A DNA stretch of 41,079 bases, taken from a virus. Each line of letters starts with the position of its first letter. Within the stretch, counting starts at the first letter, position 1. The translations under genes and the position numbers were made by a program. Location: the IMG/VR virus record IMGVR_UViG_3300020202_000144, positions 1 to 41,079 of that record, one strand, 5' to 3'. Positions 1-41,079 of the stretch are shown here, one piece after another. The notes beneath the pieces are model-generated. The model had not been told where the DNA came from. It was given only the letters and a program-made list of their open reading frames with translations, and searched no databases.

Positions 1-502
1 TGCGCTTACCCAGAAGGCTGAAGGCACGCTCGGCCCCGCCTGCGATGGCCCCCTCGGTAGCTCCGCGCACCAGGAGGCCCCCGCCGAGCCTTCCCGCCAC
101 GCTGGCACCAGCGGCATCGGCCAGGCCCATCGGGGTGTATCGCAGGGCCGTGGAGCCCGCTCCGGCCCCTCCAAGGGCGCCCATGGAGGCCAGGATTGCC
201 GTACCGGCCCCCGCTCCTCTGGTAATCGGGTTAGCCTGAGCAACCTTCTCAGACTCCATCCAGGGCATCGCATGCTTGGCCAGGGCGCCGTAACCGCCCA
301 GGGTAAGCGCATCGAGCCCGCCTTCACCAAAGGCCTGGAGCTGGTTTAGGCCTCCGCCGTACTGTTTCTCAGTCAGCCGGGCCTGGGTAGCCTCTGGCGT
401 CTCGAGCTTGACGCCCAGATCCAGGGCCTTCTGAAGCTGGCTGGCCGGAATCGTCCCCGCCTGCCCGGTGGGGAAGATTACGTTAACGCGCTCCTCGGCC
501 AT
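1..502 (-). CDS. Putative DNA-ejection/internal virion protein, N-terminal part (gene cut by window edge)
   Basis: This is the first 167 or so codons of a gene that runs off the left edge and resumes at the right edge (38921-41079). Across the 126-base terminal repeat the two parts are in the same frame, giving one protein of 842 residues. The ATG at 502-500 overlaps the stop of the upstream gene as TAATG, so the start is well supported. The N-terminal part is Ala/Gly rich with short hydrophobic stretches and no catalytic motif. Position after the tail genes and size suggest the largest of three ejection-complex proteins, like the T7 gp14/15/16 set; that role is inferred from order and size, not from a recognised domain. 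The first six bases of the window do not match the other copy. Confidence 0.75.
   Translation of the reverse strand, partial: MAEERVNVIFPTGQAGTIPASQLQKALDLGVKLETPEATQARLTEKQYGGGLNQLQAFGEGGLDALTLGGYGALAKHAMPWMESEKVAQANPITRGAGAGTAILASMGALGGAGAGSTALRYTPMGLADAAGASVAGRLGGGLLVRGATEGAIAGGAERAFSLLGKR
7..132. repeat. Terminal direct repeat, left copy (circular-contig overlap)
   Basis: These 126 bases are identical to 40954-41079. Because the interrupted reading frame is continuous across them, the repeat is best read as assembly overlap of a circular or circularly permuted genome, not a biological terminal redundancy. Confidence 0.9.
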
Positions 503-6333: not shown

Positions 6334-6336
6334 GGC

Positions 6337-8247: not shown

Positions 8248-8255
8248 AAGGCCAA

Positions 8256-9476: not shown

Positions 9477-9494
9477 GACAGGTTGCTCCTGTCA
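9476..9494 (-). promoter_or_regulatory. Stem-loop enclosing the capsid ribosome-binding site
   Basis: TGACAGG at 9476-9482 pairs perfectly with CCTGTCA at 9488-9494 around a 5-base loop. On the mRNA the AGGAG sequence straddles stem and loop, and the A of the capsid start codon closes the stem. This could tune capsid translation. Confidence 0.5.
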
Positions 9495-9529
9495 GGCCCT
9501 CGTAAGGCAATGCTAAAAGGCTAAATTGA

Positions 9530-10549: not shown

Positions 10550-10568
10550 GTGGGATATCCTCTTTGAC

Positions 10569-10598
10569 TTGCGGAAAACCCGGGCCCATGCCTATAAC
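10569..10598 (+). promoter_or_regulatory. Candidate plus-strand promoter for the 93-aa zinc protein
   Basis: TTGCGG (10569-10574), an 18-base spacer and TATAAC (10593-10598). The ATG at 10605 is 7 bases after the -10 box, so the transcript would be leaderless. The -10 box overlaps a TAACCAG heptamer. The -35 match is weak. Confidence 0.4.
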
Positions 10599-10604
10599 CA
10601 GTGC

Positions 10605-10886
10605 ATGGACAGCCCGCGGGTTAAGGAGCTCCTGGCAAAGCTCGTTGACGCCATCCAGGAGGAAACCAGAAATCAACTACTTGCAGCCCTAGGCGGGCCC
10701 GCCAAGGCCGCTAGGCAGGCCCCGGCCGCGCCAGTGGCCAAGAAGGCCGTCAAGCGCGATATGTCCTGCATCGCCCCAGGCTGTAAGAGCCGCTCCAAGG
10801 GGCCACGCTTTCGCTTCCTGTGCGAAAAGCACCTAAAGGCCTCGTCCAAGGACGTGGAATCCTGGCGGGCCGCTAGGTCGGGATAA
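10605..10886 (+). CDS. Small basic zinc-finger protein on the opposite strand (93 aa)
   Basis: A 93-residue plus-strand gene inside the minus-strand head operon, in the gap between scaffold and portal. It has an N-terminal amphipathic helix (VKELLAKLVDAIQEE), an Ala/Pro/Lys linker, and a C-terminal Cys/His cluster (CIAPGCKSR ... LCEKH) that could bind one zinc. It looks like a small nucleic-acid-binding protein. I start it at 10605 and not at the upstream ATG because the candidate promoter ends 7 bases before. Its 3' end overlaps the portal 3' end by 14 bases. It is probably expressed apart from the late genes, perhaps in lysogeny; that is inference. Confidence 0.65.
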   Translation: MDSPRVKELLAKLVDAIQEETRNQLLAALGGPAKAARQAPAAPVAKKAVKRDMSCIAPGCKSRSKGPRFRFLCEKHLKASSKDVESWRAARSG

Positions 10887-12729: not shown

Positions 12730-12735
12730 GGAGCC

Positions 12736-12984
12736 TTACGACTTCTTGGTGAGGCGCGGAACCTGGCCATCGGGCCAGAGATCGGGATCGTCGTAGATCG
12801 TTACGCGAGGCTGCTCGGCCTCCGGCGTGGCCTTGAGCTTCTCAAGCTCTTCCGCCATGGCCGCATTCCACTCGGAGGCCAGGTCGGGAGCGTCTCGCTC
12901 GAGCTCGACCTCTCCCACCTTGACGCGGCGGAGGCCGTGGCTTTTCATGAGCGCCAGGAGGCGCTCCACCTCGTCAATCGTCAT
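12736..12984 (-). CDS. Small protein between terminase and portal (82 aa)
   Basis: An 82-residue acidic protein with an N-terminal helix (IDEVERLLALMKSHGL) and a second helix (WNAAMAEELEKLKATPEA). It overlaps the end of the terminase gene by 11 bases and ends 6 bases before portal, so it is co-translated with head genes. Function unknown; it may be a packaging or head-assembly accessory. Confidence 0.65.
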   Translation of the reverse strand: MTIDEVERLLALMKSHGLRRVKVGEVELERDAPDLASEWNAAMAEELEKLKATPEAEQPRVTIYDDPDLWPDGQVPRLTKKS

Positions 12985-14506
12985 TCCAAACCTCTTCTAA
13001 GTTATCGCGCTCCCACCAGTCAGTTTCGGCGTTGCGCTCGTATTGCTCGGCCAGGCGGGCCTCTTCCTGGGCCTCTGCCCAGGCGTAATAGGCCTCGGTG
13101 CCGCGCTTTGGCGCCTCAACCACCTGCCGGGTGTAGTGGTGGAAACAGTGACGCCAGAGGTAGACAAAGGCGTCGATCGCGTGATCAGGAAAGCCCTTGT
13201 CGATGTCCTTGCCGCGCTCGTCCCACTGCGCGTATTTCATCTGCCGCTCAAGATGGCTCCCGCGGAGCACCTTGATGCGGCCTGCCATGAGATCCGAGTT
13301 ACAGAGCTCGATGTGATCGCGCTTTTCCTGCTTCTCTGCCGGCTGGATATCGAACCCATACTCAGCGTTGAGAGACTCGATGATCGTCCTGCCGAGGCCG
13401 CCTCGGTCGCCGATCATGGCGTCGAATTGGCCGAAGATCTGCTCAGCCTTGCGCAACTCCCTGGCTATCTCGGAGACAACCAGGCCAGGCTGTGCGAAGC
13501 TGTAGACGTGGTACATCGTGTCGCACGTCTCGCTGTACGCCGCGACCTCGATGTCCGTGTCATCGTTAAAGCCTAGGTCGACCCCTAGGACGAAACGCCA
13601 CTCATGGCCATCGGGAAGGCCAAACGGGTTACCCTCGGACAGTTCCGGTAACCAAGAGTTGCGCTCATCGTTGTAGCGAAAGACGAAGCCGGAATCGTCG
13701 GCCACCCACTGGCCCAGGTACTCACGGCGCCAGATGGGATCATCGTCGTGCCACCGGTTGGCCTCCTTGTCTGCGAGGAAGCCTTGCCAGATGTGTGGCA
13801 TCGCCTGGTTATCAGAGGTATTCCAGGAGTGTCCCGACCAGGTAAACGGCCGTTCCCAGCCTTCGCGCGATCTCCAAGGCCTCGTAATCGCTGAGCCCTC
13901 GCGAGTCGCTTCGTAGAAAACGCCTGCCAGGATGGCACCCGGGGTGCCGGCCATGATCAGCGTACCGGCCCTGTCGTGCAGCGCAGGCTCGATGACCTGC
14001 TTTACGAGCTCATCGATGATGTCTGGCGGAAAGCTTTTGGACTCGTCCAGGACGACGACGTCATAGGGCTTGCCGCGGAGCTTATCGACGTCGTGGGCCG
14101 TTTCGGCCCCGGTGAGCTTGATGGAGCCGCCACGGGGGAATGTGGCTACCAGGTTGGTATTGTGGAAGTTGATACCAAGTTCCAACTCGGTATCTAGGTG
14201 TTTGAGCTCTTCCCAGATGAGGCTCTGGGCCGTTCCCCGCGTCATGGTGATGTAAACGCAGTTGGCGCGGGGCCTGGTTAGACAGGTGGTAACCAGGAGG
14301 GTGGTTAGCGCATACGTCTTACCCGCGCGACGGGGACAAAGCAGCGTCTTTTTGCGGCTGGGATCGTTCAGGAAGTCTAGCTGTTGCTGGAAGAGCCTGG
14401 AGCGGAGGAGCGAGGCCTTGCGTTCAGCTTCTTCGGCAGAGCCAGCCGCCAAATCCCTCTTCAGCCTGGCAAAGAGGGCATCTTGTACTTTCTTTTTCTT
14501 GGCCAC
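12974..14506 (-). CDS. terL: Terminase large subunit (510 aa)
   Basis: A 510-residue DNA-packaging ATPase/nuclease. Residues 57-64 form Walker A (CPRRAGKT), 148-156 Walker B (YDVVVLDES), and residues 308-315 (GVDLGFND) begin the RNase H-like nuclease domain. A further acidic site is near 370 (IGDRGG) and the last near 450 (HAIDAFVYLW). It pumps DNA through the portal and cuts concatemers. The start used is GTG at 14506 with no obvious Shine-Dalgarno sequence; it overlaps a small membrane-protein frame upstream. Length is normal for the family. Confidence 0.92.
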   Translation of the reverse strand: MAKKKKVQDALFARLKRDLAAGSAEEAERKASLLRSRLFQQQLDFLNDPSRKKTLLCPRRAGKTYALTTLLVTTCLTRPRANCVYITMTRGTAQSLIWEELKHLDTELELGINFHNTNLVATFPRGGSIKLTGAETAHDVDKLRGKPYDVVVLDESKSFPPDIIDELVKQVIEPALHDRAGTLIMAGTPGAILAGVFYEATREGSAITRPWRSREGWERPFTWSGHSWNTSDNQAMPHIWQGFLADKEANRWHDDDPIWRREYLGQWVADDSGFVFRYNDERNSWLPELSEGNPFGLPDGHEWRFVLGVDLGFNDDTDIEVAAYSETCDTMYHVYSFAQPGLVVSEIARELRKAEQIFGQFDAMIGDRGGLGRTIIESLNAEYGFDIQPAEKQEKRDHIELCNSDLMAGRIKVLRGSHLERQMKYAQWDERGKDIDKGFPDHAIDAFVYLWRHCFHHYTRQVVEAPKRGTEAYYAWAEAQEEARLAEQYERNAETDWWERDNLEEVWNDD

Positions 14507-14576
14507 TTAGCAGCCAAAGCACGCCCGTGCACCACCACAGGGCGGCCAGGAGAAAGCAGAGATAACCAAAGAGCAC
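14424..14576 (-). CDS. Possible small membrane protein overlapping terminase start (50 aa)
   Basis: A GTG-start frame of 50 codons whose start shares a base with the stop of the upstream gene (TAGTG). Residues 2-24 are strongly hydrophobic (FGYLCFLLAALWW), followed by a CPLC motif and a further Cys. It overlaps the terminase gene by 83 bases, which argues for caution. It could be a real short membrane protein or a chance frame. Confidence 0.35.
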   Translation of the reverse strand: MLFGYLCFLLAALWWCTGVLWLLSGQEKESTRCPLCQAEEGFGGWLCRRS

Positions 14577-14884
14577 TACTTCTTGGACTTGACGCGTTTC
14601 AGGGCGTCAGCCAGAGGCTCGCCGATAACAGCCTTCTCGTTGCGGCCCATCTCAAAGCCATCGGCGGCAGATTCGTCGGGGTAGTAATACAGGACGTTGC
14701 CCAGCGGAACGAATACGGCCTGCCCGGCGTGATCGCCGCGCGTATGACGAATAACCACCGAGCCGGCCTCGAGCCGGATATCCAGCGTTTCCTTGGTGCG
14801 GGCGTCGCCCATGCTAAAGCCGTACTCAACCCGGCTATCCCGAAGCTTCACAGCCTCGCGGAACCTAACCTGCTTCAGATTCAT
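14576..14884 (-). CDS. Hypothetical protein (102 aa)
   Basis: A 102-residue protein, mostly beta in its first two thirds (VEYGFSMGDARTKETLDIRL), with a short basic C-terminus (KRVKSKK). I chose the ATG at 14884, which overlaps the acetyltransferase end by 20 bases; upstream codons in this frame lie deeper in that gene. It sits in the packaging cluster just before terL. Family not recognised. Confidence 0.6.
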   Translation of the reverse strand: MNLKQVRFREAVKLRDSRVEYGFSMGDARTKETLDIRLEAGSVVIRHTRGDHAGQAVFVPLGNVLYYYPDESAADGFEMGRNEKAVIGEPLADALKRVKSKK

Positions 14885-15329
14885 CGGCTTCGGCCTTTCG
14901 GGATCGGGCCAGAACTGGCATCCAGACGGCCTGGCGGCGACCACGGAGCAGCTCGGCCACGATTGGCGTGCGATAGGTATAGAAAAACGGCTGTGAGACG
15001 TGAACGCCAGCGGCTCGGAGCAGTGCCTTAGCCACGCCCAGGCGCCGATACGGCTGCTTTACATACACGTAGTGGACGAGGGGCTTATCAAAGCCACGCT
15101 CTACACAGGCCCAGCCATAGATATCGCTCTTGGCCTCGTCTTCCCCTGGCACGTAGGCCACGTAAACCACGGAGCCGCGATCTAGAAGCTGCTGGATGGC
15201 TAGGCGATAGGCGTCGTAGTACAGGTTAAACGGCAGGAGCCCGGCTGCGTTGCTCGTCTTGAAGCTCTTGAGCCAGCTGGACATGACAAAAGGCATGTCG
15301 CGGCTCTCTGCCGGGCGGAAGGAGATCAC
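14865..15329 (-). CDS. GNAT-family acetyltransferase (154 aa)
   Basis: A 154-residue protein with a GNAT fold: N-terminal strand-helix (FRPAESRDMPFVMSSW), a central strand pair (VVYVAYVP; DIYGWACVER), and the acetyl-CoA pyrophosphate loop at about residues 90-102 (VKQPYRRLGVAKALL). It presumably transfers an acetyl group to an unknown amine or protein. GNAT-like genes are common near phage packaging genes. The GTG start directly abuts the upstream TAG stop. Confidence 0.75.
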   Translation of the reverse strand: MISFRPAESRDMPFVMSSWLKSFKTSNAAGLLPFNLYYDAYRLAIQQLLDRGSVVYVAYVPGEDEAKSDIYGWACVERGFDKPLVHYVYVKQPYRRLGVAKALLRAAGVHVSQPFFYTYRTPIVAELLRGRRQAVWMPVLARSRKAEADESEAG

Positions 15330-15515
15330 CTAAAACTCTTCAGTCTCAGCGTCGTCGGCCCTGGCAAAGGCCTCGGCAAAGAAGCGCTCGTCTTCGGCGT
15401 CAGCACAGGCGAGGCACAGGACAAAACTCTGCTCCTCGCCAGTCTCTGGATCCCAGCTGACAACGATCGTGCCATTGTCGCAGTTATCCGCGCCGCAGTT
15501 GTGACAACCACTCAT
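15330..15515 (-). CDS. Small zinc-binding protein (61 aa)
   Basis: A 61-residue acidic protein with Cys pairs CHNCGADNC near the start and CLACADAEDE at residues 34-37, a likely treble-clef or zinc-ribbon pair. It starts with an ATGA overlap on the upstream gene. The reading frame 1 base off is a shadow. It is one of several tiny zinc proteins here; function unknown. Confidence 0.65.
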   Translation of the reverse strand: MSGCHNCGADNCDNGTIVVSWDPETGEEQSFVLCLACADAEDERFFAEAFARADDAETEEF

Positions 15516-15844
15516 TCGTACTTTGTGAAGCCGGTTACCGTAGGCAGATGCTTGAAATACTCGCGCCTGGGCTCTGCCTGCTTTGGCTCCGGCTCCTTGC
15601 TCAGCGAGGCAAAGAACTGCTTACGGAGTTCCTGAAAGCAGGGCCGGCAAAAGTCCTTGCCGGTGCCCTCGACATCCAGGTACCAGTCCTCGTGGCGATA
15701 ATAGCCGCCGTCCAGAGTCCAACTGCCGTCTTTCTGCTGAGTCAGGTTGGAATCGTGCGTCATCAGTCGGCATTCCATTTCACGTCGGCAGCGATCGCAG
15801 GCGTGGTAACTGATGTGCACCTGGACGGTTTTTGTCAGCTTCAT
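15512..15844 (-). CDS. Zinc-binding hypothetical protein (110 aa)
   Basis: A 110-residue protein with two Cys pairs, CDRC at about residues 16-19 and CRPC at about 66-69, separated by a Trp/Tyr/Asp-rich beta segment. This is a two-part zinc site. The ATG at 15844 overlaps the upstream stop (ATGA), so the longer open frame is not used. It lies in the cluster upstream of terminase; function unknown. Confidence 0.65.
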   Translation of the reverse strand: MKLTKTVQVHISYHACDRCRREMECRLMTHDSNLTQQKDGSWTLDGGYYRHEDWYLDVEGTGKDFCRPCFQELRKQFFASLSKEPEPKQAEPRREYFKHLPTVTGFTKYE

Positions 15845-16275
15845 TTGGTTTCCAGCCTCGACACAAGCCGGGCCCGGTACTCTGGCGGCAACGTCCCGAA
15901 CCACTCCACCATCAGGTCGATCCGGCCCTCATGGCCCAGCTCATCGGCCTCGTCCCTGGCATCTTTCTCCAGGGCCCTGGCTTCCTTGAGCAGGCCAGAG
16001 ATAGCCCGGGCCAACTTGGTGGCCTCGGCCGTGTGGTGGGCGTCGTAGCTGTCTTTGGCGTTGATCTGGTAATCCAGCTTGTCTAGCTGGCGCCGGAGCT
16101 GGCGGAGGCTCTGCCCTGTGAGCTCGTCCAGGGATGGAGTACCCTCGCTCCTGGCTAACGGCTCTGTCGGGGCAACAAAGCTAGACTGGATTCCCTTGGC
16201 CCGGCACCGGCTGCAAGCGTCGCCGGAGTTATGGACTAGCTGATCACAGCCCGGCCCGGCACACCTGACGCTCAC
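15841..16275 (-). CDS. Zinc-ribbon and helical protein, possible small terminase (144 aa)
   Basis: A 144-residue protein beginning at GTG 16275, which overlaps the upstream stop as GTGA. Residues 5-25 hold four Cys (CAGPGC, CSRC). The rest is helical: two long helices (LRQLRRQLDKLDYQI; ATKLARAISGLLKEARALE) and a C-terminal segment MVEWFGTLPPEYRARLVSRL. A DNA-binding head plus oligomerising helices, together with a place upstream of terL, would suit a small terminase subunit, but no small terminase is otherwise recognisable and this is only a guess. Confidence 0.6.
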   Translation of the reverse strand: MSVRCAGPGCDQLVHNSGDACSRCRAKGIQSSFVAPTEPLARSEGTPSLDELTGQSLRQLRRQLDKLDYQINAKDSYDAHHTAEATKLARAISGLLKEARALEKDARDEADELGHEGRIDLMVEWFGTLPPEYRARLVSRLETK

Positions 16276-16589
16276 CCCAGAGCAGCCATGGCCGTGAACA
16301 GGCCGATCAGGGCCGTGGACTCGCGAACGGCTTTCCTGCGAGCCGGCTGGAAGAGGCAAACGCAAGGCTCAACGCTCACGCTCGTCCTAAACTCGCGAAA
16401 CGGCTTCTTGCCATAGCGCCTGGCCTGACCGTGGAGCGGCTCCGATCTGGTACGGTGCCAGACAACCTCGCCAGTACCGTTGCAACGGTTGCAGTCCAGT
16501 CTGGGGAGCTCCCCGGCGTGCCTGGCCCGGCGGATGTCCCACCAAAGCTCATTGTTCTCGGCGTCAAAGCTGGCTCGAGCGCGCTTCAA
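16272..16589 (-). CDS. Zinc-ribbon protein, first gene of late cluster (105 aa)
   Basis: A 105-residue basic protein with a DnaJ-like Cys motif CNRCNGTG (residues about 33-40) and a second Cys pair CVC further on. The start is TTG at 16589, chosen because AGGAGA lies 6 bases upstream on the minus strand; no ATG or GTG is placed as well. It is the first gene after the noncoding gap and so may head the late transcript. It might act in packaging or gene control; function unknown. Confidence 0.6.
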   Translation of the reverse strand: MKRARASFDAENNELWWDIRRARHAGELPRLDCNRCNGTGEVVWHRTRSEPLHGQARRYGKKPFREFRTSVSVEPCVCLFQPARRKAVRESTALIGLFTAMAALG

Positions 16590-16966
16590 TCGGCTTCTCC
16601 TGGTAATCCGACTGGTTACCTAGATCGATAACCAGTGGTGCGAGGCCTGTGCGTCCGCGTGGCCTGTGAGCAAAGGCGGGGCAGGCTGGCGCTATGCCAG
16701 CTATTCAATGCAGCCTTTTCAGGGGCCTGCCCCGAATTGGTTTTTGGGGATCCAGTAGCGCGGGGCTAGAGGCCCGAGGTACCCCACCCCCAAAGGGGGG
16801 GGTGATCGGGCCCCGTGCCCCACCCGGCCTCACCTGAACTAGGCCGGCTTTGGGTTGGTGCTCGGGTGAAAAAGCCTTGCTTTTGGTTCTTTCCTAAGCA
16901 AGAACGCTTGCTTAAGCCCAGAATCGGCCTTCGCCCCAGGATGGCCTATGTCCTACAGGGTACCGG
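16590..16966. other. Noncoding, hairpin-rich gap between early and late genes
   Basis: About 377 bases with no convincing gene. From left: two TAACCAG/CTGGTTA heptamers (16612-16618, 16629-16635); a 10-base inverted repeat CGGGGCAGGC (16677-16686) / GCCTGCCCCG (16725-16734) enclosing a smaller CTGGC-GCTAT-GCCAG hairpin; a CACCCCC-AAA-GGGGGGG hairpin near 16784-16803; AAAAGC-CTT-GCTTTT (16870-16884); and TAAGCAAG-AACG-CTTGCTTA (16895-16914). It is a candidate packaging site, late promoter region or secondary origin. Confidence 0.6.
16868..16884 (-). terminator. Short terminator-like hairpin
   Basis: On the minus strand AAAAGC-AAG-GCTTTT is followed by one more T and C. It lies downstream of the last early gene (16967-17179) and could end early transcription. 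The stem is short and AT-rich, so this is tentative. Confidence 0.35.
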
Positions 16967-17179
16967 TTAGCTCGAGTGCGGCTCTTTTCGGGACGTCGCA
17001 CACGCGGCCGCTGGCGGAGCCAGTTTCGCCGGAGCCAGTTTCGCCGGAGCCGCCAACTCATCTCCGTTGACAATCCGCATGGCTCGAGCGAAGCAAGCTT
17101 CGTGATAAGGCCCTTCAATGCTCTCCGTTAACGGCTCTCTGCAGAACGAAAAGATGCAGAGTTTCAGTGGCTTAGCCAT
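16967..17179 (-). CDS. Small Cys-rich protein with tandem repeat (70 aa)
   Basis: A 70-residue protein with a possible zinc site CIFSFC ... HEAC in its first 32 residues and an Ala/Pro/Lys tail containing the repeat LAPAK. The repeat comes from an exact 15-base tandem duplication (17016-17030 and 17031-17045). It is the last gene before the noncoding gap. Function unknown. Confidence 0.55.
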   Translation of the reverse strand: MAKPLKLCIFSFCREPLTESIEGPYHEACFARAMRIVNGDELAAPAKLAPAKLAPPAAACATSRKEPHSS

Positions 17180-17204
17180 GCGTGGGTTCTCTGCTTTTGT
17201 CGCG

Positions 17205-17253
17205 CTTCGCGCCTTACCGCTCGCGCGACTCTCGTTGCCCGCAGGGCGCGAAG
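17205..17253 (-). other. Inverted repeat between HNH gene and next gene
   Basis: Nine-base perfect arms, CTTCGCGCC (17205-17213) and GGCGCGAAG (17245-17253), form a strong stem just after the HNH stop. No T-run follows, so it could be a terminator of another kind or an mRNA-stabilising hairpin. Confidence 0.4.
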
Positions 17254-17255
17254 AC

Positions 17256-17639
17256 TCAAACTAATCCGCTAGTTATGCCAAGCACCGGCCCAAAACCACA
17301 TGTACAGCGGCCACGCCTTGTCTTGGCTAGGTGGCAACTGCCACAAAGCAGCTGGAGCACGTCTGGATATCCAGAAGCGATAACCCAGCGGTAAAAACAC
17401 CGATTGGCACCACGCCTTGAGCCACGGGCTCGCCTGTGCGCGGCTCCAGAACCATCGATATGGTCTAGGCTCAACTTGTCTGGGTCCGGCTCGGAGCAGC
17501 AAACGCAGCGGCCACCATAACCAGCATAGACAGCGTCGCGGAGGCGCCTGGTACGCTCGGCGGCACCCCGAGCATCGCACGGCCGACACTTACCCTTGCT
17601 GGACCGATTACTCGCGCCACAGCGAGGACATGGCCGCAT
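17256..17639 (-). CDS. HNH endonuclease with zinc pairs (127 aa)
   Basis: A 127-residue protein. An N-terminal zinc pair (CPRCGASNRSSKGKCRPC) is followed by the HNH/treble-clef core: CVCCSEPDPDKLSLDHIDG, in which LDH carries the catalytic His, then LCGSCHLAKT, in which the last His/Cys pair completes the fold. It is a DNA nuclease, either free-standing homing type or a packaging cofactor as in other phages that carry HNH genes near terminase. It is about 2.8 kb upstream of terL. Small size and lack of a DNA-recognition domain beyond the zinc pair are typical of phage HNH proteins. Confidence 0.8.
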   Translation of the reverse strand: MRPCPRCGASNRSSKGKCRPCDARGAAERTRRLRDAVYAGYGGRCVCCSEPDPDKLSLDHIDGSGAAHRRARGSRRGANRCFYRWVIASGYPDVLQLLCGSCHLAKTRRGRCTCGFGPVLGITSGLV

Positions 17640-29291: not shown

Positions 29292-29482
29292 TGGAGTTTA
29301 CCAACCACCGGCTCCGAGCTCTGCTGCGCATGCCCGGCAAGACGATGCCCGGGCTGGCAGCAGAGCTCCTTGAGGCCCGGCGGATGCTGGCGGAGTGGCT
29401 CCGGCATCTGGACGGTCAGAATCCACGCCACACCGGCCTTGCGCAGCATACGGTTAGCTTTCTGGGGGAGGACTGGGACTGA
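29291..29482 (+). CDS. Hypothetical helical protein (63 aa)
   Basis: A 63-residue basic/helical protein (LRALLRMPGKTMPGLAAELL, then RMLAEWLRHLDG). Start ATG 29291 overlaps the previous stop (TGATG). Unrecognised. Confidence 0.5.
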   Translation: MEFTNHRLRALLRMPGKTMPGLAAELLEARRMLAEWLRHLDGQNPRHTGLAQHTVSFLGEDWD

Positions 29483-29970
29483 TGCCGGGGCAATATCTGA
29501 CTACCGCGCAAGCTGCTGCTTTTCTTGGTTACAAAACCAAGGCCGGGCTATTGATGGCAATGGCCAAGGGCAAGATCAAGCCGGCCGGTCGCCGTGGCGG
29601 CACGGGTACTTACGTATGGTTGAAATCCGATCTTGACTGCTTCTTAACGGGTGGCGTAGGGTCGTTATATGGCAGGTCAGAAAACGGGCTGGAAACGCCA
29701 TGCGGGGTACGAGATCGAGGCGACTTCGACGCTGAAGGGGGTTTGGAGGACGCGGGACGGGAGGTGGTACGTCCGGGGCCACGCGACGGATCCCAAGACG
29801 GGGAAGCTCCGGGAGGTGAGCCGGTGCTTGTCGGTGGCATCCGCAAGCGACGCAAGGGCCTGGTTAGAGGACGGGCTCGAGCGGATTCGCACGGGCGGTC
29901 CTACAGCAACGAGGATGCGATTCGGGGAATACGCGAAATTGCTCTTCGCGCGAAAGGTGGAGCTCGGTGA
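29482..29970 (+). CDS. Excisionase-like MerR/HTH protein, frame overlaps integrase (up to 162 aa)
   Basis: A reading frame whose first 56 or so residues (YLTTAQAAAFLGYKTKAGL ... VWLKSDLDCFL) match the MerR-like helix-turn-helix of phage excisionases, with the wing in GRRGGTGTYVW. The frame stays open for 100 more codons across the integrase start at 29669, but that part is low-complexity, Gly/Arg rich and probably a by-product of overlap, unless the overlap is functional. Position just before int is standard for xis. The start has a TGATG junction with the upstream gene. Confidence 0.6.
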   Translation: MPGQYLTTAQAAAFLGYKTKAGLLMAMAKGKIKPAGRRGGTGTYVWLKSDLDCFLTGGVGSLYGRSENGLETPCGVRDRGDFDAEGGLEDAGREVVRPGPRDGSQDGEAPGGEPVLVGGIRKRRKGLVRGRARADSHGRSYSNEDAIRGIREIALRAKGGAR

Positions 29971-30874
29971 TCTGGCTTCGCTGAAGTCGGTAGAGACGTG
30001 GGAGTCGGTGCTTAACGAGCACCTGATGCCGTACTTCGGTGAGTATTACTTGGATGCGATTACCAAGTCGGACATTGCGAACTGGTTATCGATCCAGGCC
30101 AGGCTGGTAACCAGCAAGAAGTATAGTCCGAACTCGGTAAATAGTTGGCTGGCCAAGCTCAAGGTGATCATGGCCGCCGCGACGGATGAGTTTGACTTGG
30201 CCAAGGATCCGGCGCTAAGGGTCAAGCCGCTGGATGCCTCGACCTGGCGTACCTATACCCGGGAGGCTCCAAATGCGCTCCGAGCCGTTGACGTGCCCCG
30301 TTTTCTGCGAGAAATGCGCCTCAGCTTCCCCCAGCACTACGCATTCTGTGCGCTTGGGTTCGCTACTGGACTTCGCCCGAGCTCGTTGCGCCCGCTGCGG
30401 AGGATTGGCAGCCAAGCTGATCTTGACTGGGCCACGGGGATTCTTTGGGTGCGACGGAGCCACACGGTACGGCAAGAAGTGATGGAGAAGACAAAGACGG
30501 CCAGGGATCAGGAGATTGCGTTACCGCAGGAGATGCTGGAAATCCTGAAATGGCACGTCGATCGGTTGCCAAGGACGCGAAAAGACAGCGAGCTTTTGTT
30601 CCCGGGGAAGGGCGGTAGATTGCGGAGCCGCTCGTGCCTGGATAAACCGTTCGAGGCCGTAGCCAGGGCTATCGAGCTCAAGTACCCGGTGACGCCCAGG
30701 GCTATGCGGCGCACGTTCAAGGACTTGTGCCGGGCCGCGGCGGTGCAGGACGTGGTGTCAAAACAGGTGTCTGGACACGTCACGGACGAGATGCACGAGC
30801 ATTATCAGACGGTGCACCTGGATGAGCAGCGGCAGGCACTGGCCAAGGTGATCGAGCTGTTCAAGGCTGCCTAG
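29669..30874 (+). CDS. int: Tyrosine-type integrase (401 aa)
   Basis: A 401-residue site-specific recombinase. The N-terminal 130 residues carry the arm- and core-binding SAM-like domain (FGEYAKLLFARKVELGD). The catalytic domain has Arg236 (ATGLRPSSLRPL), a Lys-bearing beta hairpin, AMRRTF with Arg347/348 where HxxR is usual, GH at 369-370 and the nucleophile Tyr379 in MHEHYQTV. The usual His of HxxR is replaced by Pro/Ala (TPRAMRR). The start is ATG 29669, since an in-frame TAG lies 12 bases upstream. It should recombine attP at 33.5 kb with a host tRNA-Val. Confidence 0.9.
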   Translation: MAGQKTGWKRHAGYEIEATSTLKGVWRTRDGRWYVRGHATDPKTGKLREVSRCLSVASASDARAWLEDGLERIRTGGPTATRMRFGEYAKLLFARKVELGDLASLKSVETWESVLNEHLMPYFGEYYLDAITKSDIANWLSIQARLVTSKKYSPNSVNSWLAKLKVIMAAATDEFDLAKDPALRVKPLDASTWRTYTREAPNALRAVDVPRFLREMRLSFPQHYAFCALGFATGLRPSSLRPLRRIGSQADLDWATGILWVRRSHTVRQEVMEKTKTARDQEIALPQEMLEILKWHVDRLPRTRKDSELLFPGKGGRLRSRSCLDKPFEAVARAIELKYPVTPRAMRRTFKDLCRAAAVQDVVSKQVSGHVTDEMHEHYQTVHLDEQRQALAKVIELFKAA

Positions 30875-30882: not shown

Positions 30883-31083
30883 ATGTGGAAACCACTCGAG
30901 TTTGAAATGCCCCAAGAGCATGAGTACGTCTGTGCCAAGAACCATCGTTATAAGGGCCCGCCATGGAAAATGAATGTACAGGGCCATAACTTCTACGCCC
31001 AGACTGCGGATCTGTGTCCTCAGTGCGTGGTTGATATGTACAACAGTCATGCCGCGGCGAGCAAATGGCCTCCGAGAAAGTAG
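30883..31083 (+). CDS. Small zinc-binding protein (66 aa)
   Basis: A 66-residue protein with Cys at residue 17, a CPQC pair at 45-48, and several His. A good ribosome-binding site (GGAGGGGG) is 2 bases before the ATG. It immediately follows int. Function unknown; might bind DNA. Confidence 0.6.
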   Translation: MWKPLEFEMPQEHEYVCAKNHRYKGPPWKMNVQGHNFYAQTADLCPQCVVDMYNSHAAASKWPPRK

Positions 31084-31412
31084 ACAATTGTCAGCGTTGT
31101 AATCGGCCAGGGACGAAGCTAAAGGCCGACGGCAAATACCTGATGCGAGACAGGGTTGCCTGCGGGTGGTGCGACATCTGGCTGGATAGCGATGACGGCG
31201 TGGAGAGGAAAATTAGATATGCACTTGACTTCCGATGCGGTGACTGTGTCTGGAACGACCCAATCGGCACGGTTACGCTATGTTCACGCTGTCTGTCGTC
31301 CAGGATCTCGGTGTCCAGCGGGGAGTGGCCGGACGATTCCAAGGCTAGGTATCTCGGTTATCGCTCGGTCGAGGAAATGCGCCGGGCGCTAGACAAGGCT
31401 GTGGCCTCGTGA
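31065..31412 (+). CDS. Cys-rich zinc protein (115 aa)
   Basis: A 115-residue protein with four Cys pairs (CQRC, CGWC, CGDC, CSRC), likely two zinc ribbons. It overlaps the previous gene by 19 bases and has a C-terminal helical end (SVEEMRRALDKAV). Codon use is like the phage core. Function unknown; a small nucleic-acid-binding protein is likely. Confidence 0.6.
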   Translation: MASEKVDNCQRCNRPGTKLKADGKYLMRDRVACGWCDIWLDSDDGVERKIRYALDFRCGDCVWNDPIGTVTLCSRCLSSRISVSSGEWPDDSKARYLGYRSVEEMRRALDKAVAS

Positions 31413-31735
31413 ATGCCATTCATCCCGTTTTTTTGAGGTTTCGCATGACTCCCGGGAATAACCTTCGATTCCTTTCACTAGCGGGAATCCTTGCGGTTTC
31501 GGGCTGCGATCCGGACATCGCCGTGCGCGTGCCGTGCGGGTACAAGGCCGTGATTGAGTACCAGGGAGACACGCTCGTCGTGGACTACCGGCCGCAGGCT
31601 CCAGGCGACGTCGCCGGCAAGAAGCGCCGCGAGTACATGCATCAGCGGCCGAATGAGGACATGCACACGGACGGCGCCGGGGTCATCGTGCAGGAGTGCC
31701 TCGCCGCCCCCTCGAAGCCGGGAGGGACGCCGTGA
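31409..31735 (+). CDS. Predicted lipoprotein (108 aa)
   Basis: A 108-residue protein with a lipoprotein signal: hydrophobic segment LRFLSLAGILAVSGC, lipobox AVSGC. GTG start with GTGA overlap; a better-placed second start may be the ATG at 31445. The mature protein is hydrophilic with two more Cys. It opens the GTG/GTGA-linked cassette and could be an envelope protein expressed from the prophage (superinfection exclusion or fitness). Inferred. Confidence 0.6.
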   Translation: MNAIHPVFLRFRMTPGNNLRFLSLAGILAVSGCDPDIAVRVPCGYKAVIEYQGDTLVVDYRPQAPGDVAGKKRREYMHQRPNEDMHTDGAGVIVQECLAAPSKPGGTP

Positions 31736-32049
31736 GCGCCGTACCGAAGTGCATCGTGTGGTCGTACGAGTACGCCGAGGGCTTGCGGATGCGCCTGCTC
31801 ATCCGGCCCGACCAGGAATGGCACTTCTACCTGCACGACGAAAAGTTGGTCGGCGAGGAGGACCTCTACGACCCGGGCTCCGAGAAATGGGAGGTCATCG
31901 AGGCCGTGGAGTTCAACGCCGAGACCGCTCGACGCCTCGGGGCCGTGCTCACGTTCGAGGGTGGACTCGCCACCCCCACCCCCTCTCCGCCGGACAAGGC
32001 GCTCGAGAGCGCCGGTCCTGCGATCGGAGATCGCAAGGAGGGCGAGTGA
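31732..32049 (+). CDS. Cassette protein 2, hypothetical (105 aa)
   Basis: A 105-residue protein starting at GTG (GTGA overlap). Its first half is beta-rich (RMRLLIRPDQEWHFYLHDE) and its tail is Pro/Gly rich. Codons are strongly GC3-biased relative to neighbours upstream. Unrecognised. Confidence 0.55.
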   Translation: MSAVPKCIVWSYEYAEGLRMRLLIRPDQEWHFYLHDEKLVGEEDLYDPGSEKWEVIEAVEFNAETARRLGAVLTFEGGLATPTPSPPDKALESAGPAIGDRKEGE

Positions 32050-32312
32050 GCCGCCTCTGGAAAGTTAGGTACACGATCGAGATGGAGATGCCTGTCTACG
32101 CGGCGACGCAGGACGAGGCGCTCGACGTGGCGGAACGCTTCTGGCGGGACGACATGGCCCACTGCGACCCGGAGCCGGAGTTCTCGGCCCCGTTCCCCAT
32201 CAGCATCCGCTCGGAGTTCCCCGCGGACTGGACGGGCACGTTTGCCTGGGCGATGGACAAGGTGCGCCGGAACGTCGATGCGCTCGTCGCCACCCCCTCG
32301 GAGCCCAAGTGA
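32046..32312 (+). CDS. Cassette protein 3, hypothetical (88 aa)
   Basis: An 88-residue protein beginning at the GTG of a GTGA junction; the longer open frame in the track lies in other genes. Core WKVRYTIEMEMPVYAATQDE followed by Trp-rich segments. Unrecognised. Confidence 0.55.
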   Translation: MSRLWKVRYTIEMEMPVYAATQDEALDVAERFWRDDMAHCDPEPEFSAPFPISIRSEFPADWTGTFAWAMDKVRRNVDALVATPSEPK

Positions 32313-32656
32313 TCGACCTCAAGGCCATCCGGGAGCTACGAGATGACCCTCGTCTACGCGCCCCGGACGCGATGATGCGTGCGCTCATCTACATTGAGGA
32401 CACGGGCAAGCTCCTCGCCGAGGTCGAGCGCAAGGCCAGCGAGCTGGCCGACGCACGCCTCCGCCTGGAGCGGGCTGAGCAGGAGGCGTTGCGCCTGCGG
32501 GCCGAGCGAGACGAGACGCTGTCATATCTCGCGGAGTTCGTGGACATCCCCGAGGTGGCATGCCCGAATGCCCTCCGGTGCGACTGCTACGACCGGCGGT
32601 GCGTGAAGCTGTACGGCTTCCTGGCCCGCTTCGGAATTGCGAGCGACCCCAAGTGA
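32309..32656 (+). CDS. Cassette protein 4, coiled coil with Cys cluster (115 aa)
   Basis: A 115-residue protein: a coiled coil in the middle (KLLAEVERKASELADARLRL, then EQEALRLRAERDE) and a C-terminal Cys cluster (CPNALRCDCYDRRC). Starts at GTGA. Unrecognised; could bind metal. Confidence 0.55.
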   Translation: MIDLKAIRELRDDPRLRAPDAMMRALIYIEDTGKLLAEVERKASELADARLRLERAEQEALRLRAERDETLSYLAEFVDIPEVACPNALRCDCYDRRCVKLYGFLARFGIASDPK

Positions 32657-32730
32657 CCGCGCTGGCGGCGAAGGACAAGCCCGACAAGTCGGGCGGGCCT
32701 CGGGCCAAGGGCCCGAAGGAGGCGGCGTGA
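32653..32730 (+). CDS. Cassette micro-ORF (25 aa)
   Basis: A 25-codon frame bounded by GTGA junctions on both sides. It is Lys/Gly/Ala rich (KDKPDKSGGPRAKGPKEAA). It could be a translational bridge between its neighbours or a tiny peptide. Confidence 0.35.
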   Translation: MTALAAKDKPDKSGGPRAKGPKEAA

Positions 32731-32975
32731 GCGAGGACGAAATGCCTCCACCCTGCGGTCATCTCATGGAACCACGTCACTGGGCGAGCGAGGACCCTAT
32801 CGGACCGGCGCCCGTGACCTGCCCCGGTAGTAACCAACCCGTCCGCGTCGGCCAGGTCGGGCTCGGCTTCCTCAAGACTGTCTGCCACGTCTGCGGGGCC
32901 GAGTTTCCGGCAAGGGGATATCACCACGGGATGGTCCCGCCGCATGATGCCCCCGCGAAGGAGCCGAAGCCGTGA
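32727..32975 (+). CDS. Cassette zinc protein (82 aa)
   Basis: An 82-residue protein with CGH near residue 11, a lone Cys (VTCPGSN) and a CHVCGAEF pair near residue 54, a probable zinc ribbon. GTGA junctions at both ends. Unrecognised. Confidence 0.5.
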   Translation: MSEDEMPPPCGHLMEPRHWASEDPIGPAPVTCPGSNQPVRVGQVGLGFLKTVCHVCGAEFPARGYHHGMVPPHDAPAKEPKP

Positions 32976-33262
32976 GCGAGCGCACCCGGTACATCCCTGC
33001 GGCCGTTCGGATCAAGGCGCCGCCCGGCTGTGCGGAGGAGCGTCTCGTCGTCGATGTCCTCGCCGAGGAGGTCCGCATCTCGGTGCAGGCTCGGTACGAT
33101 GGCGAATCCTGGGGCCCGCGCTGCAACACTCTCGTCGCATCAATGGACGAAGCCCGCGCCCTCCGCGACGCGCTGAACGAGGCGCTCGACGGCAAGCCCA
33201 ACGCCGAAGCCCAGGCCGCGGCGAGGACGCGGCTGGGGGATGAGGAGAAGAGGGAGGGCTAG
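32972..33262 (+). CDS. Cassette protein, last of the GTGA chain (96 aa)
   Basis: A 96-residue protein, beta-rich first half (RIKAPPGCAEERLVVDVL) and helical second half (EARALRDALNEALDG). Starts at GTG of a GTGA junction. Unrecognised. Confidence 0.5.
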   Translation: MSERTRYIPAAVRIKAPPGCAEERLVVDVLAEEVRISVQARYDGESWGPRCNTLVASMDEARALRDALNEALDGKPNAEAQAAARTRLGDEEKREG

Positions 33263-33264
33263 AT

Positions 33265-33450
33265 ATGGAGACATTTGTGGTTGCCAAGAACATCAACGGG
33301 CAGTTAGTGGTATTGTGCCCGTGGTGTAAGAAGCGACATTTTCACGGAGCCCTGGGCGGCTTTGGGGTAAGAGCAGCGCACTGTGCCAGCGGTCCCGGCG
33401 TCGGGCGAGAATACGTTCTCATCGACGCACCCAAGCCACCACCCAAGTAA
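33265..33450 (+). CDS. Small zinc-knuckle protein (61 aa)
   Basis: A 61-residue protein with CPWCKKRHFH, a likely zinc site completed by a later Cys (HCASG). ATG at 33265 is 2 bases after the previous stop. It is the last gene before attP. Codon use is less GC-biased than in the cassette. Function unknown. Confidence 0.55.
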   Translation: METFVVAKNINGQLVVLCPWCKKRHFHGALGGFGVRAAHCASGPGVGREYVLIDAPKPPPK

Positions 33451-33453
33451 GCC
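33440..33453. repeat. attP arm repeat, left
   Basis: CACCCAAGTAAGCC, repeated with one change at 33630-33643 on the other side of the tRNA core. Candidate arm-type integrase site. Confidence 0.4.
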
Positions 33454-33532
33454 CCAATCAGCCCCGCCAAGTGGTTCAAACTTCGTTCAAGACGATCTAC
33501 GTAACCGGCCGAAACCATACATAGCCGGACGT

Positions 33533-33578
33533 CTTCACACGGAGGAAGTCGCTGGTTCGATCCCAGCATCGCCCACGA
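33533..33578 (+). other. attP: attP core: 3' half of a tRNA-Val(CAC) gene
   Basis: The sequence reads as a tRNA from the anticodon loop to the end: loop TTCACAC (33534-33540) with anticodon CAC, stem GGAGG, variable AAGTC, T-stem GCTGG, T-loop TTCGATC, T-stem CCAGC, acceptor ATCGCCC (33568-33574), discriminator A, then CGA. The 5' half is absent upstream, so it is no gene but an attachment core that restores the host tRNA on integration. Spurious frames across it encode the well-known tRNA-derived peptide MLGSNQRLP on the minus strand. Confidence 0.85.
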
Positions 33579-33629
33579 ATAAAACCGGCTAGTTAGAGAA
33601 CGGCCGAGATCAAGACTACCCAACCTTCC

Positions 33630-33643
33630 CACCCAAGTAGGCC
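33630..33643. repeat. attP arm repeat, right
   Basis: CACCCAAGTAGGCC, matching 33440-33453 with one mismatch, 52 bases right of the tRNA core. Confidence 0.4.
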
Positions 33644-33670
33644 ACCCTAAAGTTCCGGGAGTGACGGCCG

Positions 33671-33970
33671 ATGGTCTGGACCATGCGCATGGCCATGGTT
33701 CTAGTTCTAGCGGTTGGGTGCAGCGTGGGCGAGGGGGCCAGGTGCGAGGCCATGGCCAGGGCCATGTGCAAGCGGCAGCAGATTTGTGACAAGGAGAGGT
33801 ATGGCCAGGCGGGGGAGGACACGAGCTACTGCGAGTCGGTGCAATACGAGGCGTGCTCCAAGAGGCCGGTGAGGATGTTCAAACAGGAAGAGTGCGTAGC
33901 AGAGATCCGGGAGTGGAACTGTGAGTTTCTTGGGATGAGCGACAGGCTCCCGATGGAGTGTCAACCTTAG
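33671..33970 (+). CDS. Predicted lipoprotein, Cys rich (99 aa)
   Basis: A 99-residue protein with a lipoprotein signal (MAMVLVLAVGCS; lipobox LAVGC) and six further Cys in pairs (likely disulfides in the periplasm or at the cell surface). The gene lies immediately right of attP, so in a prophage it would sit at the opposite end from int. It converges with the minus-strand gene at its stop (4-base overlap). Could act in superinfection exclusion or lysogenic conversion; inferred. Confidence 0.6.
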   Translation: MVWTMRMAMVLVLAVGCSVGEGARCEAMARAMCKRQQICDKERYGQAGEDTSYCESVQYEACSKRPVRMFKQEECVAEIREWNCEFLGMSDRLPMECQP

Positions 33971-34203
33971 TCCGGCAGGATGATCTCCACGTCCTCGTAC
34001 TGCAAGGACTCGAGCCAGACGTCGTAGCAGCCGGCGCAGCGCCTGGTGGGTGGTCGACGCTCCACAGGCTCGTAGGGGCTCACCCAGAGCGCTAGGCCCA
34101 TTCCGGGCTCGTTGGTGCCCCCGCCGCAGTCGTCACAATACCCGCGGCCACAGTAGCGCTTGCTGGGCTTAGTAGGGAATTCCGTACTGTCGGGCGACTT
34201 CAC
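33967..34203 (-). CDS. Zinc-binding hypothetical protein (78 aa)
   Basis: A 78-residue protein with Cys pairs (YCGRGYCDDCGGG; RCAGCYDV), likely two half-sites of a zinc ribbon. No ATG exists in this frame near the start; GTG 34203 overlaps the protease gene by 35 bases. It is the last gene of the late unit. Function unknown. Confidence 0.5.
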   Translation of the reverse strand: MKSPDSTEFPTKPSKRYCGRGYCDDCGGGTNEPGMGLALWVSPYEPVERRPPTRRCAGCYDVWLESLQYEDVEIILPD

Positions 34204-34627
34204 GGAGCTTGTCCTCCTTGCCGTCGCCGGTGAGGTGCCACAGGATGATGTGGCCGAGCTCGTGGCCGAGCGACGTCCGGCTCAGATCCCAGCCGTTTTG
34301 GTAGACAACCCAGGTGAATTTCTGGGGCCAGACCGCCAGGCCGTAAATCTCCCTCGCTTCAAAAACGAGCTTGGGGACGAACGTCATACGAATCCCGCGC
34401 ACGGCCTCGCGGATATCCGACTCGCGATCGGGGTACGCGGTTAGCCAGAGGCGGATCGTGCGCTCGGTTTCCAGCTCAATCTCATCCCGCTGGATATCGA
34501 ACTTGGCCGGAAAAACCTCGAGCTCATGCTCGGTAATGAAGTACTTGGGGCCCTTGTTTCGCCTGGGGGCCGTGGCACAGGCCGCGCCGATGGCGATCAG
34601 CAGTAGGATAAGTAGAATAGTTTTCAT
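34169..34627 (-). CDS. Lipoprotein with HExxH metalloprotease motif (152 aa)
   Basis: A 152-residue protein. It starts MKTILLILLLIAIGAACAT, a lipoprotein signal with lipobox IGAAC, so it should be anchored in the envelope. Near residue 123 it has HELGHIILWH, the zinc-protease HExxH motif with a following His. The protein between is helical and aromatic. It is the next-to-last late gene after the spanins. It could degrade envelope or peptidoglycan-linked protein at lysis or act on the cell surface. The motif is seen; substrate is unknown. Confidence 0.7.
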   Translation of the reverse strand: MKTILLILLLIAIGAACATAPRRNKGPKYFITEHELEVFPAKFDIQRDEIELETERTIRLWLTAYPDRESDIREAVRGIRMTFVPKLVFEAREIYGLAVWPQKFTWVVYQNGWDLSRTSLGHELGHIILWHLTGDGKEDKLREVARQYGIPY

Positions 34628-34740
34628 GCTAAGCGTCCGTATGTCCGGCCGCACGCGTCGCAGGAGCCGAACCAAAGGCTAGTGGTTACTTTCCTGAGGC
34701 AGAGTCCTCGCTCCGCCTTGCAGCTGGGGCAGGCCCGCAC
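34624..34740 (-). CDS. Possible small zinc ribbon overlapping spanin gene (38 aa)
   Basis: A frame with CPSCKAERGLC ... CDAC, a neat zinc ribbon, running from within the outer spanin gene to an ATGA junction with the lipoprotease. GTG at 34740 is a possible start; a longer version from 34842 is also open. The clean Cys spacing and stop/start coupling favour a real gene, but overlap is extensive. Confidence 0.45.
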   Translation of the reverse strand: MRACPSCKAERGLCLRKVTTSLWFGSCDACGRTYGRLA

Positions 34741-34991
34741 AAGGCGTAGGCCTCGTTGGCCCAGCCGTGCATTGCCTCCAGGTACATCACCAGATTTCGC
34801 GTGCTTGGAAGATCGAGACACACGGCGAAGGGCGAGGGACACTCAGGAGGGCCCGTTACCGTCACCGGGCCCGGGCTTGGCGGAGCCTTTAACCGGCACA
34901 CCGTCAGCCTTTGGAGAGTCCTTGGTTTCGTCTGGCTTGAGCAACTGCTCAAGGCGAGTCCGAAGCAAATCGCCGTTATTAGTCGAGGCAA
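34686..34991 (-). CDS. Outer-membrane spanin lipoprotein, Rz1-like (101 aa)
   Basis: A 101-residue protein with lipobox LSSC (ITAICFGLALSSCSS) and a Pro-rich mature part (PPSPGPVTVTGPP), as in o-spanins. It starts inside the Rz-like gene in another frame and overlaps it by 149 bases, the embedded layout of Rz/Rz1. It joins the i-spanin to fuse the membranes at lysis. A few Cys (CPSP, CLD) may form disulfides. Assignment is by topology and architecture. Confidence 0.78.
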   Translation of the reverse strand: MPRLITAICFGLALSSCSSQTKPRTLQRLTVCRLKAPPSPGPVTVTGPPECPSPFAVCLDLPSTRNLVMYLEAMHGWANEAYALCGPAPAARRSEDSASGK

Positions 34992-35211
34992 GCAAACCCA
35001 TCAGTTGTCGGTTAGAGGAATCCTTAAACTTCAACGCCGCTTCGAGCCGTTGGATGGCCTCGTCGGCGTCTAGCTCGAGCCTGTCGATCTGAGACTCGGC
35101 GGAGCGCAGGTAGCGGCGGAGCTCGGAGGCTTCCTGCCGGTAGATGCGTCTGGCCCCGTAGAAGCCAGCTCCTAGTCCGGTAACCAGCGCCAGAAGGCTA
35201 AGCCACCACAT
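34843..35211 (-). CDS. Inner-membrane spanin, Rz-like (122 aa)
   Basis: A 122-residue protein: an N-terminal membrane anchor (LSLLALVTGLGAGFYG), then a long coiled coil (ELRRYLRSAESQIDRLELDA), then a polar Pro/Gly-rich end. This is i-spanin architecture. Its ATG overlaps the holin stop (TAATG). With the embedded lipoprotein downstream it spans the periplasm. Confidence 0.78.
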   Translation of the reverse strand: MWWLSLLALVTGLGAGFYGARRIYRQEASELRRYLRSAESQIDRLELDADEAIQRLEAALKFKDSSNRQLMGLLASTNNGDLLRTRLEQLLKPDETKDSPKADGVPVKGSAKPGPGDGNGPS

Positions 35212-38920: not shown

Positions 38921-41079
38921 TTACGGTCGGTTCTGAAGGGCTTGCGTCGGCGTAGGCTCGGGAGAGCCAAGCTTGGACATATTCGGGCTGGCCTGCGGCT
39001 TCGCTTCTTCCTGAGCGAAAACGGCTTGCCTGGCTCGGACGTTCTGCGGCTCCATGGACGGATCCACGGGCACTTTCATCATCAGCGAGAGTTGGATACG
39101 GCTCTTGTAGGGCAGGGTGGCTTGGAGTTCAGCCAGGTTTTTGGTTACCAGGGACTGCATCTCCCGGTAAGCAGCCGGCCATACTGCTTCGAGCGTATCC
39201 ACGTCCTCTTTCGTGAGCTTGCCCTCGGACATGAGCTCGATGGCCCTAACTGGATCCTCCGCCATAACGGCCTTGCGGGCCCACTTGGCGATCTCCGCAT
39301 CCGGCGGCCGCCAGTTGTCCTTGGCATAGGGAGAGGCCACGCTAGGGCGCTTCGGCAAGCTCTCAATAAGAAACTGGAGCTTGCGCTCGAGCCTCTCCTG
39401 GAGCGCGTCGGCTAGTTGCGGGTTTGCGGCCCTGACGCCAGCCAACTGCTCATAGATACGGCTCCTAGCTCCCTCGGGGCTGGCAGCGAGCTTGGTGAGC
39501 TCCTCGTGGCGCTTCTTGAACGAGGCCAAAGAGGTATCCTTGGCTTTGCTGTCGCCGTAAGGATTCTGTCCTACCGCGGCCGCAGCCGACTTCGTGGACG
39601 CCTTTGCCGTGCCCTTGCCGAGCTTTTCCACCCCGTCGGCCACTCTGCGGATAAACGTGTCCTTGGAAGCCAGGAGCTTGGCCATGTTCTTACTGGTGGC
39701 CATTCCCCGTACCATGTCGCCAGCCCAGGCCCCCGCGAGCATGCCCGCAGGGCCGCCGATGGCATGCCCCACGGCTCCGCCGAGCATCGCGCCTGCACGG
39801 TTACCGAGAAAGCCGGCAACCTTGCCCGCGAGGCCTTCAGAGGCATCCGGGGCCCCCTTGGCCGCGCCGATCGTCTTGCGATAGAGCCTTTCCTTGACCA
39901 GTGTCTCGAGGCTGGAACCGGGCGCAGGATCGGGTAGGCCCTCGGCCTTGGCGAAGGCGTTGATCTCGTCCCGGCTGGCCTTGAGTCCCTTGCCCTCGGC
40001 CAGGTCGACCAGGGCCTTGGCATCGGAAACGTTGTCTGTGGCCCGAAGCTTAGAAATCTGCTCCGCTCGGGCCGCGAACTCCACGTCTAGCTGGGCCAGT
40101 TTTTCGCTGTTCACTGGCTTGGCCAGTTGCTCCATCTTGGCCTTGATGCTCCTGAGATCGCCCTGCATGAGCTTGGCGAAATCATCCACAACGGCCTCGC
40201 CGCCCTTGTAGGCCTGGAGGAGGTCGATAGCCTTGTCCTGGGCGTTCTTGATTGCGCCCAGGGCGACGGGATCGTCAACAATCTGGCGAAGCCGCTCATC
40301 CGGCTCGAGCGTGTATTCCGTCTTGCCACGCTTCTTGCCGATGGCCTTCCTGGCATCCGTCATGTCGGCCCGAGGGTTCTCGTTGCCGATATCTTCCATC
40401 TTGCCCTTGCGAACGGGGCGATACGGCTCCATGCCCTTGCGGGCCTCGAGATATGCGTCTGCCTGGGCCTTAAGCTCAGGCCTATCGACGGCCATTTTCT
40501 TGGCAAAGCCGTCGTATTTGTTGAGGTACTTCTCGGCCGTAACCGCGTCTTGTTTCCAGCGGGAGAAAGCCAGCTCGTAGGCCTCGGGATCAGCCTTTAC
40601 GGCCGCGAGCTCGCCCGCAGATTCTGACGCTGCCTTGAGCCGGGCCACCTCTTCCTGGTAAGCAGCTCGGTTGGAGGCCTGCTCCTCGCTCAGGGCCTTG
40701 GCATAACCCCGCCTGGTGGCAGCCGTGGGCCGGCTCTTATCGAAGTCGTCCAGGATGGAGCGGAGGCTGCCGTCGTTACCAGAGGCCTTGGCCGCGGCCC
40801 TGTCTAGGATCCCCTCCGTGGCCTTCCTGGCTTGCTTGGTAAGGCCCCCGATGGCCAGCCCCAGCCCCCCGGCTCCCGTCCCGATGGCCCCGCCCCAGAA
40901 CACGCCAGAGCCAATTTCCGAGGCAATGATATCAAGGGTTACCGGATCGTCCGTACCCAGAAGGCTGAAGGCACGCTCGGCCCCGCCTGCGATGGCCCCC
41001 TCGGTAGCTCCGCGCACCAGGAGGCCCCCGCCGAGCCTTCCCGCCACGCTGGCACCAGCGGCATCGGCCAGGCCCATCG
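38921..41079 (-). CDS. Putative DNA-ejection/internal virion protein, C-terminal part (continues from window start)
   Basis: The rest of the 842-residue protein that starts at 502 on the minus strand. Visible are a Gly-zipper membrane segment (MLGGAVGHAIGGPAGMLAGA) in the middle, several coiled coils (DVEFAARAEQISKLRA), and a Pro-rich end. It reads like a large, mostly helical core protein. As the last gene before the fibre cluster it fits an ejectosome subunit. No lytic transglycosylase motif (as in T7 gp16) is visible. Stop at 38921. Confidence 0.75.
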   Translation of the reverse strand, partial: MGLADAAGASVAGRLGGGLLVRGATEGAIAGGAERAFSLLGTDDPVTLDIIASEIGSGVFWGGAIGTGAGGLGLAIGGLTKQARKATEGILDRAAAKASGNDGSLRSILDDFDKSRPTAATRRGYAKALSEEQASNRAAYQEEVARLKAASESAGELAAVKADPEAYELAFSRWKQDAVTAEKYLNKYDGFAKKMAVDRPELKAQADAYLEARKGMEPYRPVRKGKMEDIGNENPRADMTDARKAIGKKRGKTEYTLEPDERLRQIVDDPVALGAIKNAQDKAIDLLQAYKGGEAVVDDFAKLMQGDLRSIKAKMEQLAKPVNSEKLAQLDVEFAARAEQISKLRATDNVSDAKALVDLAEGKGLKASRDEINAFAKAEGLPDPAPGSSLETLVKERLYRKTIGAAKGAPDASEGLAGKVAGFLGNRAGAMLGGAVGHAIGGPAGMLAGAWAGDMVRGMATSKNMAKLLASKDTFIRRVADGVEKLGKGTAKASTKSAAAAVGQNPYGDSKAKDTSLASFKKRHEELTKLAASPEGARSRIYEQLAGVRAANPQLADALQERLERKLQFLIESLPKRPSVASPYAKDNWRPPDAEIAKWARKAVMAEDPVRAIELMSEGKLTKEDVDTLEAVWPAAYREMQSLVTKNLAELQATLPYKSRIQLSLMMKVPVDPSMEPQNVRARQAVFAQEEAKPQASPNMSKLGSPEPTPTQALQNRP
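40954..41079. repeat. Terminal direct repeat, right copy
   Basis: Identical to bases 7-132. Joining the copies closes the circle and restores the 842-residue gene. Confidence 0.9.

Follow-up and report, generated by a model that had tools for sequence, protein, structure and literature searches.

A probable attP carrying a tRNA-Val(CAC) 3' half and paired arm-type repeats in the circular genome of an environmental phage

Integration into tRNA genes by way of a common core is well documented. In the usual case the common core is a tRNA 3' half of 30-45 bp, and the gene is rebuilt at one junction (PMC10865867); the anticodon loop is among the main crossover subsites, accounting for 2083 of 3919 islands (PMC4383910). 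The arm-type sites of phages L5 and Giles lie in direct pairs, and in Pixie two arm sites on the left and three on the right flank a tRNA-Lys core of 47 bp (PMC3203893). Fionnbharth and Gaia, which represent tRNA-dependent lysogeny, have a lambda-like integrase, paired arm sites and integration in a tRNA gene, with cores of about 8-10 bp, a tRNA that is not rebuilt and a full tRNA carried by the phage (PMC10865867).

Here we describe a locus, centred on positions 33534-33575, that is in all likelihood the attP of a temperate phage, with predicted arm-site pairs and a predicted tRNA-Val(CAC) target. It lies in a contig from an environmental sample (IMG/VR record IMGVR_UViG_3300020202_000144, positions 1 to 41,079), of a virus known only from metagenomes; the window is this whole stretch of 41,079 nucleotides. 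Its features are as follows.

7..132, no strand: terminal overlap, identical to 40954-41079, which closes a 40,947-base circle
29482..29970, + strand: HTH_17 ORF, excisionase-like candidate (match below the Pfam cut-off)
29669..30874, + strand: tyrosine recombinase (integrase), 401 aa (PF00589 above cut-off; phrog_1, E 2e-40)
33428..33435, + strand: predicted arm-type site P1, CACCCAAG
33439..33453, + strand: predicted arm-type site P2, CCACCCAAGTAAGCC, overlapping the last codons and stop of ORF 33265-33450
33534..33575, + strand: predicted attP core, tRNA-Val(CAC) 3' half, with a predicted crossover in the anticodon loop (33534-33540)
33617..33624, + strand: predicted arm-type site P'1, TACCCAAC, weaker
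33629..33643, + strand: predicted arm-type site P'2, CCACCCAAGTAGGCC
33643..33650, + strand: possible third right-arm site, CACCCTAA, two mismatches, 13 bases after P'2; weak
33671..33970, + strand: Cys-rich predicted lipoprotein, 99 aa, starting 95 bases past the tRNA 3' end

Like the mycobacteriophages L5, Giles and Pixie, all with tyrosine integrases, the phage pairs a common core with predicted direct arm-type sites in pairs. Unlike them, it has a different arm sequence, a predicted tRNA-Val(CAC) target, an attP 2.7 kb from the integrase gene and an integrase unrelated to theirs by tblastn. A second likeness is found in Nonomuraea gerenzanensis, where plasmid III (NZ_LT559120.1), a 59 kb circle, carries a tRNA-Val(CAC) 3' half beside integrase fragments and the chromosome holds a complete tRNA-Val(CAC) gene. 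Both are circular elements that join such a half to an integrase; however, the plasmid integrase adjoins the core, no sequence kinship links the two and the hosts differ. Fionnbharth and Gaia differ in that the phage described here has a longer core, about 42 bases, and carries no full tRNA. We also considered the class of tRNA-dependent lysogeny, into which the phage does not fall because of this long core and the lack of a phage-borne tRNA gene. The kind of integration is thus an ordinary one, and what is new is an orphan phage as a member of the tRNA-targeting integrators.

The core, TTCACACGGAGGAAGTCGCTGGTTCGATCCCAGCATCGCCCA, is 42 bases long, within the range typical of common cores that are 3' parts of tRNAs (30-45 bp), and runs from tRNA position 32 in the anticodon loop to discriminator base 73. 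Within the loop TTCACAC the anticodon CAC occupies 33536-33538; the 3' anticodon strand GGAGG, the variable loop AAGTC, the T-arm GCTGG-TTCGATC-CCAGC (33551-33567), the acceptor strand ATCGCCC and the discriminator A at 33575 follow in order. Nowhere else does the window contain a T-arm whose stem has five paired bases; dinucleotide-shuffled versions contain 0.08 on average. ARAGORN found no full tRNA in the window, as expected of a sequence that holds only half a tRNA gene, and an Rfam search of 32400-34800 likewise gave no match, which is expected for a tRNA half. The 5' anticodon strand CCTCC that would close the stem is missing from the phage, where ACGTC stands in its place, indicating that the similarity begins at the anticodon loop. 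Indeed, the blastn match to Nonomuraea tRNA-Val(CAC) (88% over 43 bases) starts exactly at position 32; other matches were to a cyanophage tRNA-Val(UAC) and to E. coli tRNA-Val. The 28-base T-arm and acceptor part, GTCGCTGGTTCGATCCCAGCATCGCCCA, which excludes the anticodon, has exact copies in three unrelated viral contigs, all of them (3/3) inside a tRNA-Val(CAC) gene. Furthermore, a generic tRNA-Val 5' half joined to the phage segment was called as tRNA-Val(cac), in a chimera whose anticodon strand was rebuilt as the complement of GGAGG and which therefore proves only that the segment can complete such a tRNA. The sole good T-arm, the 28-base matches and the chimera call uphold what the preliminary description had read from the letters, namely a tRNA-Val(CAC) 3' half from anticodon loop to discriminator.

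The anticodon matters for the choice of target, since a crossover in the T-loop, possibly in some other tRNA gene, would make the CAC in attP coincidental. Only the host gene would show where identity ends on the left, and a degenerate core that includes the anticodon loop was found in no genome searched, which would suit such a crossover. However, TTCACAC stands exactly 17 bases ahead of the T-stem, as in a tRNA, and each of the three exact T-arm matches belongs to a tRNA-Val(CAC) gene, so that we regard it as very unlikely. Slightly more improbable still is that the segment is a remnant of a phage-borne tRNA-Val gene that has lost its 5' half, with no attachment site at all. Genes for tRNAs are common in phages, and the three viral contigs with the exact 28 bases carry them within tRNA arrays. 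Against a remnant, the tRNA sequence breaks off precisely at the anticodon loop, which is known as a crossover subsite; the half sits between paired direct repeats of a kind scarce elsewhere in the genome; an integrase is encoded in the same genome; and there is no other tRNA in the window.

The displaced 3' half of a tRNA also marks the ends of prophages, and the contig could in principle be a prophage with host flanks, the tRNA half being an attL or attR junction. This is extremely improbable. The 126 identical bases at the two contig ends close the sequence on itself and make the genome complete, and phage genes run on at both sides of the core; together these identify the site as attP and exclude a prophage junction, provided that the overlap did not arise as an assembly artefact. 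At the very start of the contig 6 bases fall outside the match, a possible reason why a test for end repeats would overlook it. A second IMG/VR contig, 3300020215_000402 (1-10722), comes from the same virus, with 99.99% identity to 6807-17528; this near-identical fragment was all that a search for TerL relatives among viral contigs returned. The genome also encodes an Erf recombinase, an exonuclease, a DnaB helicase, TerL, a portal, a major head protein and a tape-measure-like protein, a gene set that completes a tailed temperate phage. This orphan phage, which has no close known relatives, is very probably temperate.

Returning to attP, its flanks contain the direct repeats P2 and P'2, 15 bases with one mismatch (consensus CCACCCAAGTA(A/G)GCC, at 33439 and 33629), about 80 bases from the core on the left and about 50 on the right. 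The preliminary description had given 14 bases at distances of 80 and 52. Shuffling the flanks 400 times produced no comparable pair, and of 421 placements sampled across the window one other had such a pair. Both repeats turn out to be the stronger half of a tandem pair of ACCCAA motifs, a pairing that had gone unnoticed before. The copies start at 33429 and 33441 on the left (12 bases apart) and at 33618 and 33631 on the right (13 bases apart), all in direct orientation. They make up four of the seven ACCCAA on the + strand of the whole window, a count that makes the case look somewhat stronger than it is because the motif was picked after the repeat had been seen, although the two extra copies fall outside that choice. 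We infer that these flanking pairs serve the integrase as arm sites, a role the earlier reading had already thought likely for the repeats. With the tRNA half, arm-type repeats and a tyrosine integrase all in one closed circle, its central claim of a complete attP holds.

The integrase gene lies upstream of attP at a distance of 2.7 kb, more than usual. By eye we read its motifs as R236, R344, R347, H370 and Y379; on this motif reading, Arg 344 replaces the His of the catalytic pentad RKHRH (PMC8138268). Residues 1-100, where an N-terminal arm-binding domain would lie, precede a SAM-like domain and gave no family match. A single-sequence model of the protein was unusable (mean pLDDT 39), and no convincing relatives were found in viral contigs, phages or plasmids. 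Across the stretches examined of twelve phages related through the DnaB helicase, we found neither a similar integrase nor a tRNA half whose core matched. Judged from sequence, the HTH_17 ORF adjoining the integrase gene may be an excisionase. It overlaps the start of the integrase gene by about 300 bases in a different frame; the HTH domain stops before that start, and the overlapping tail is possibly non-coding, or the overlap is real.

By analogy with the known systems, this phage would insert at the anticodon loop as follows. The integrase would bind the arm sites of CACCCAAG type, paired to the left and right of the core, through its N-terminal part, and the core itself through its central and catalytic domains. 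A host tRNA-Val(CAC) gene would then undergo strand exchange inside its anticodon loop and receive the circle; one junction would bear the host gene completed by the 3' half from the phage, and the other the 3' half displaced from the host. The restored tRNA-Val(CAC) would end in TTCACACGGAGGAAGTCGCTGGTTCGATCCCAGCATCGCCCA, with CGA and not an encoded CCA at its end, and CGAATAAAACCGG would follow at the lysogen junction, which would run on into the lipoprotein gene. At the opposite prophage end the small genes of 30883-33450 would come first, with the integrase gene 2.7 kb in. This layout agrees with the prophage ends proposed before, with the integrase and small genes at one and the lipoprotein at the other; the "cargo" attributed to the integrase side was a guess, and the small genes between the integrase and attP have no family match above the cut-off.

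A search of host genomes for tRNA-Val(CAC) 3' ends followed by this phage had been put forward as the check. Neither the exact 42-base core nor a degenerate version matched among about 85,000 species genomes; the target gene, its restoration and the use of this site are therefore predictions. The core (exact, degenerate or with the predicted anticodon stem) was equally without match in other viral contigs, and no attB, attL or attR was seen in the genome or viral collections. The Myxococcota are one conceivable host group, to which the style of the Cys-rich lipoprotein and the GC content may point. Since the predicted insertion site is a tRNA-Val(CAC) gene with a known 3' half, the host could be recognised from its genome, and the integrase and attP would add one more tRNA-targeting integration module.

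The Cys-rich lipoprotein has no family match and no relatives in viral contigs. Between the tRNA end and its gene we found neither a terminator nor a stable RNA, and no recognisable promoter between the restored tRNA and the gene. As the gene lies on the same strand, 95 bases past the tRNA, the host tRNA promoter could drive it. That this promoter expresses the lipoprotein, a surface protein, in lysogens only, making it a location-switched lysogenic conversion gene, is a speculative and unlikely proposal.

Several neighbouring ORFs deserve brief mention. Between the integrase gene and attP, 31409-31735 (+) encodes a lipoprotein-like protein (LAVSGC), and 31554-32312 (+), an ORF probably out of frame in its N-terminal part, weakly matches PF16857 (RNA polymerase inhibitor) over 24 C-terminal residues, below the cut-off. 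On the opposite strand, 34169-34675 (-) directly follows the Cys-rich lipoprotein and encodes a second lipoprotein-like protein, with a HELGH zinc-peptidase motif (HELGHIILWH). Elsewhere, 34843-35211 (-) encodes a small membrane-anchored coiled-coil protein that by eye resembles an inner-membrane spanin.
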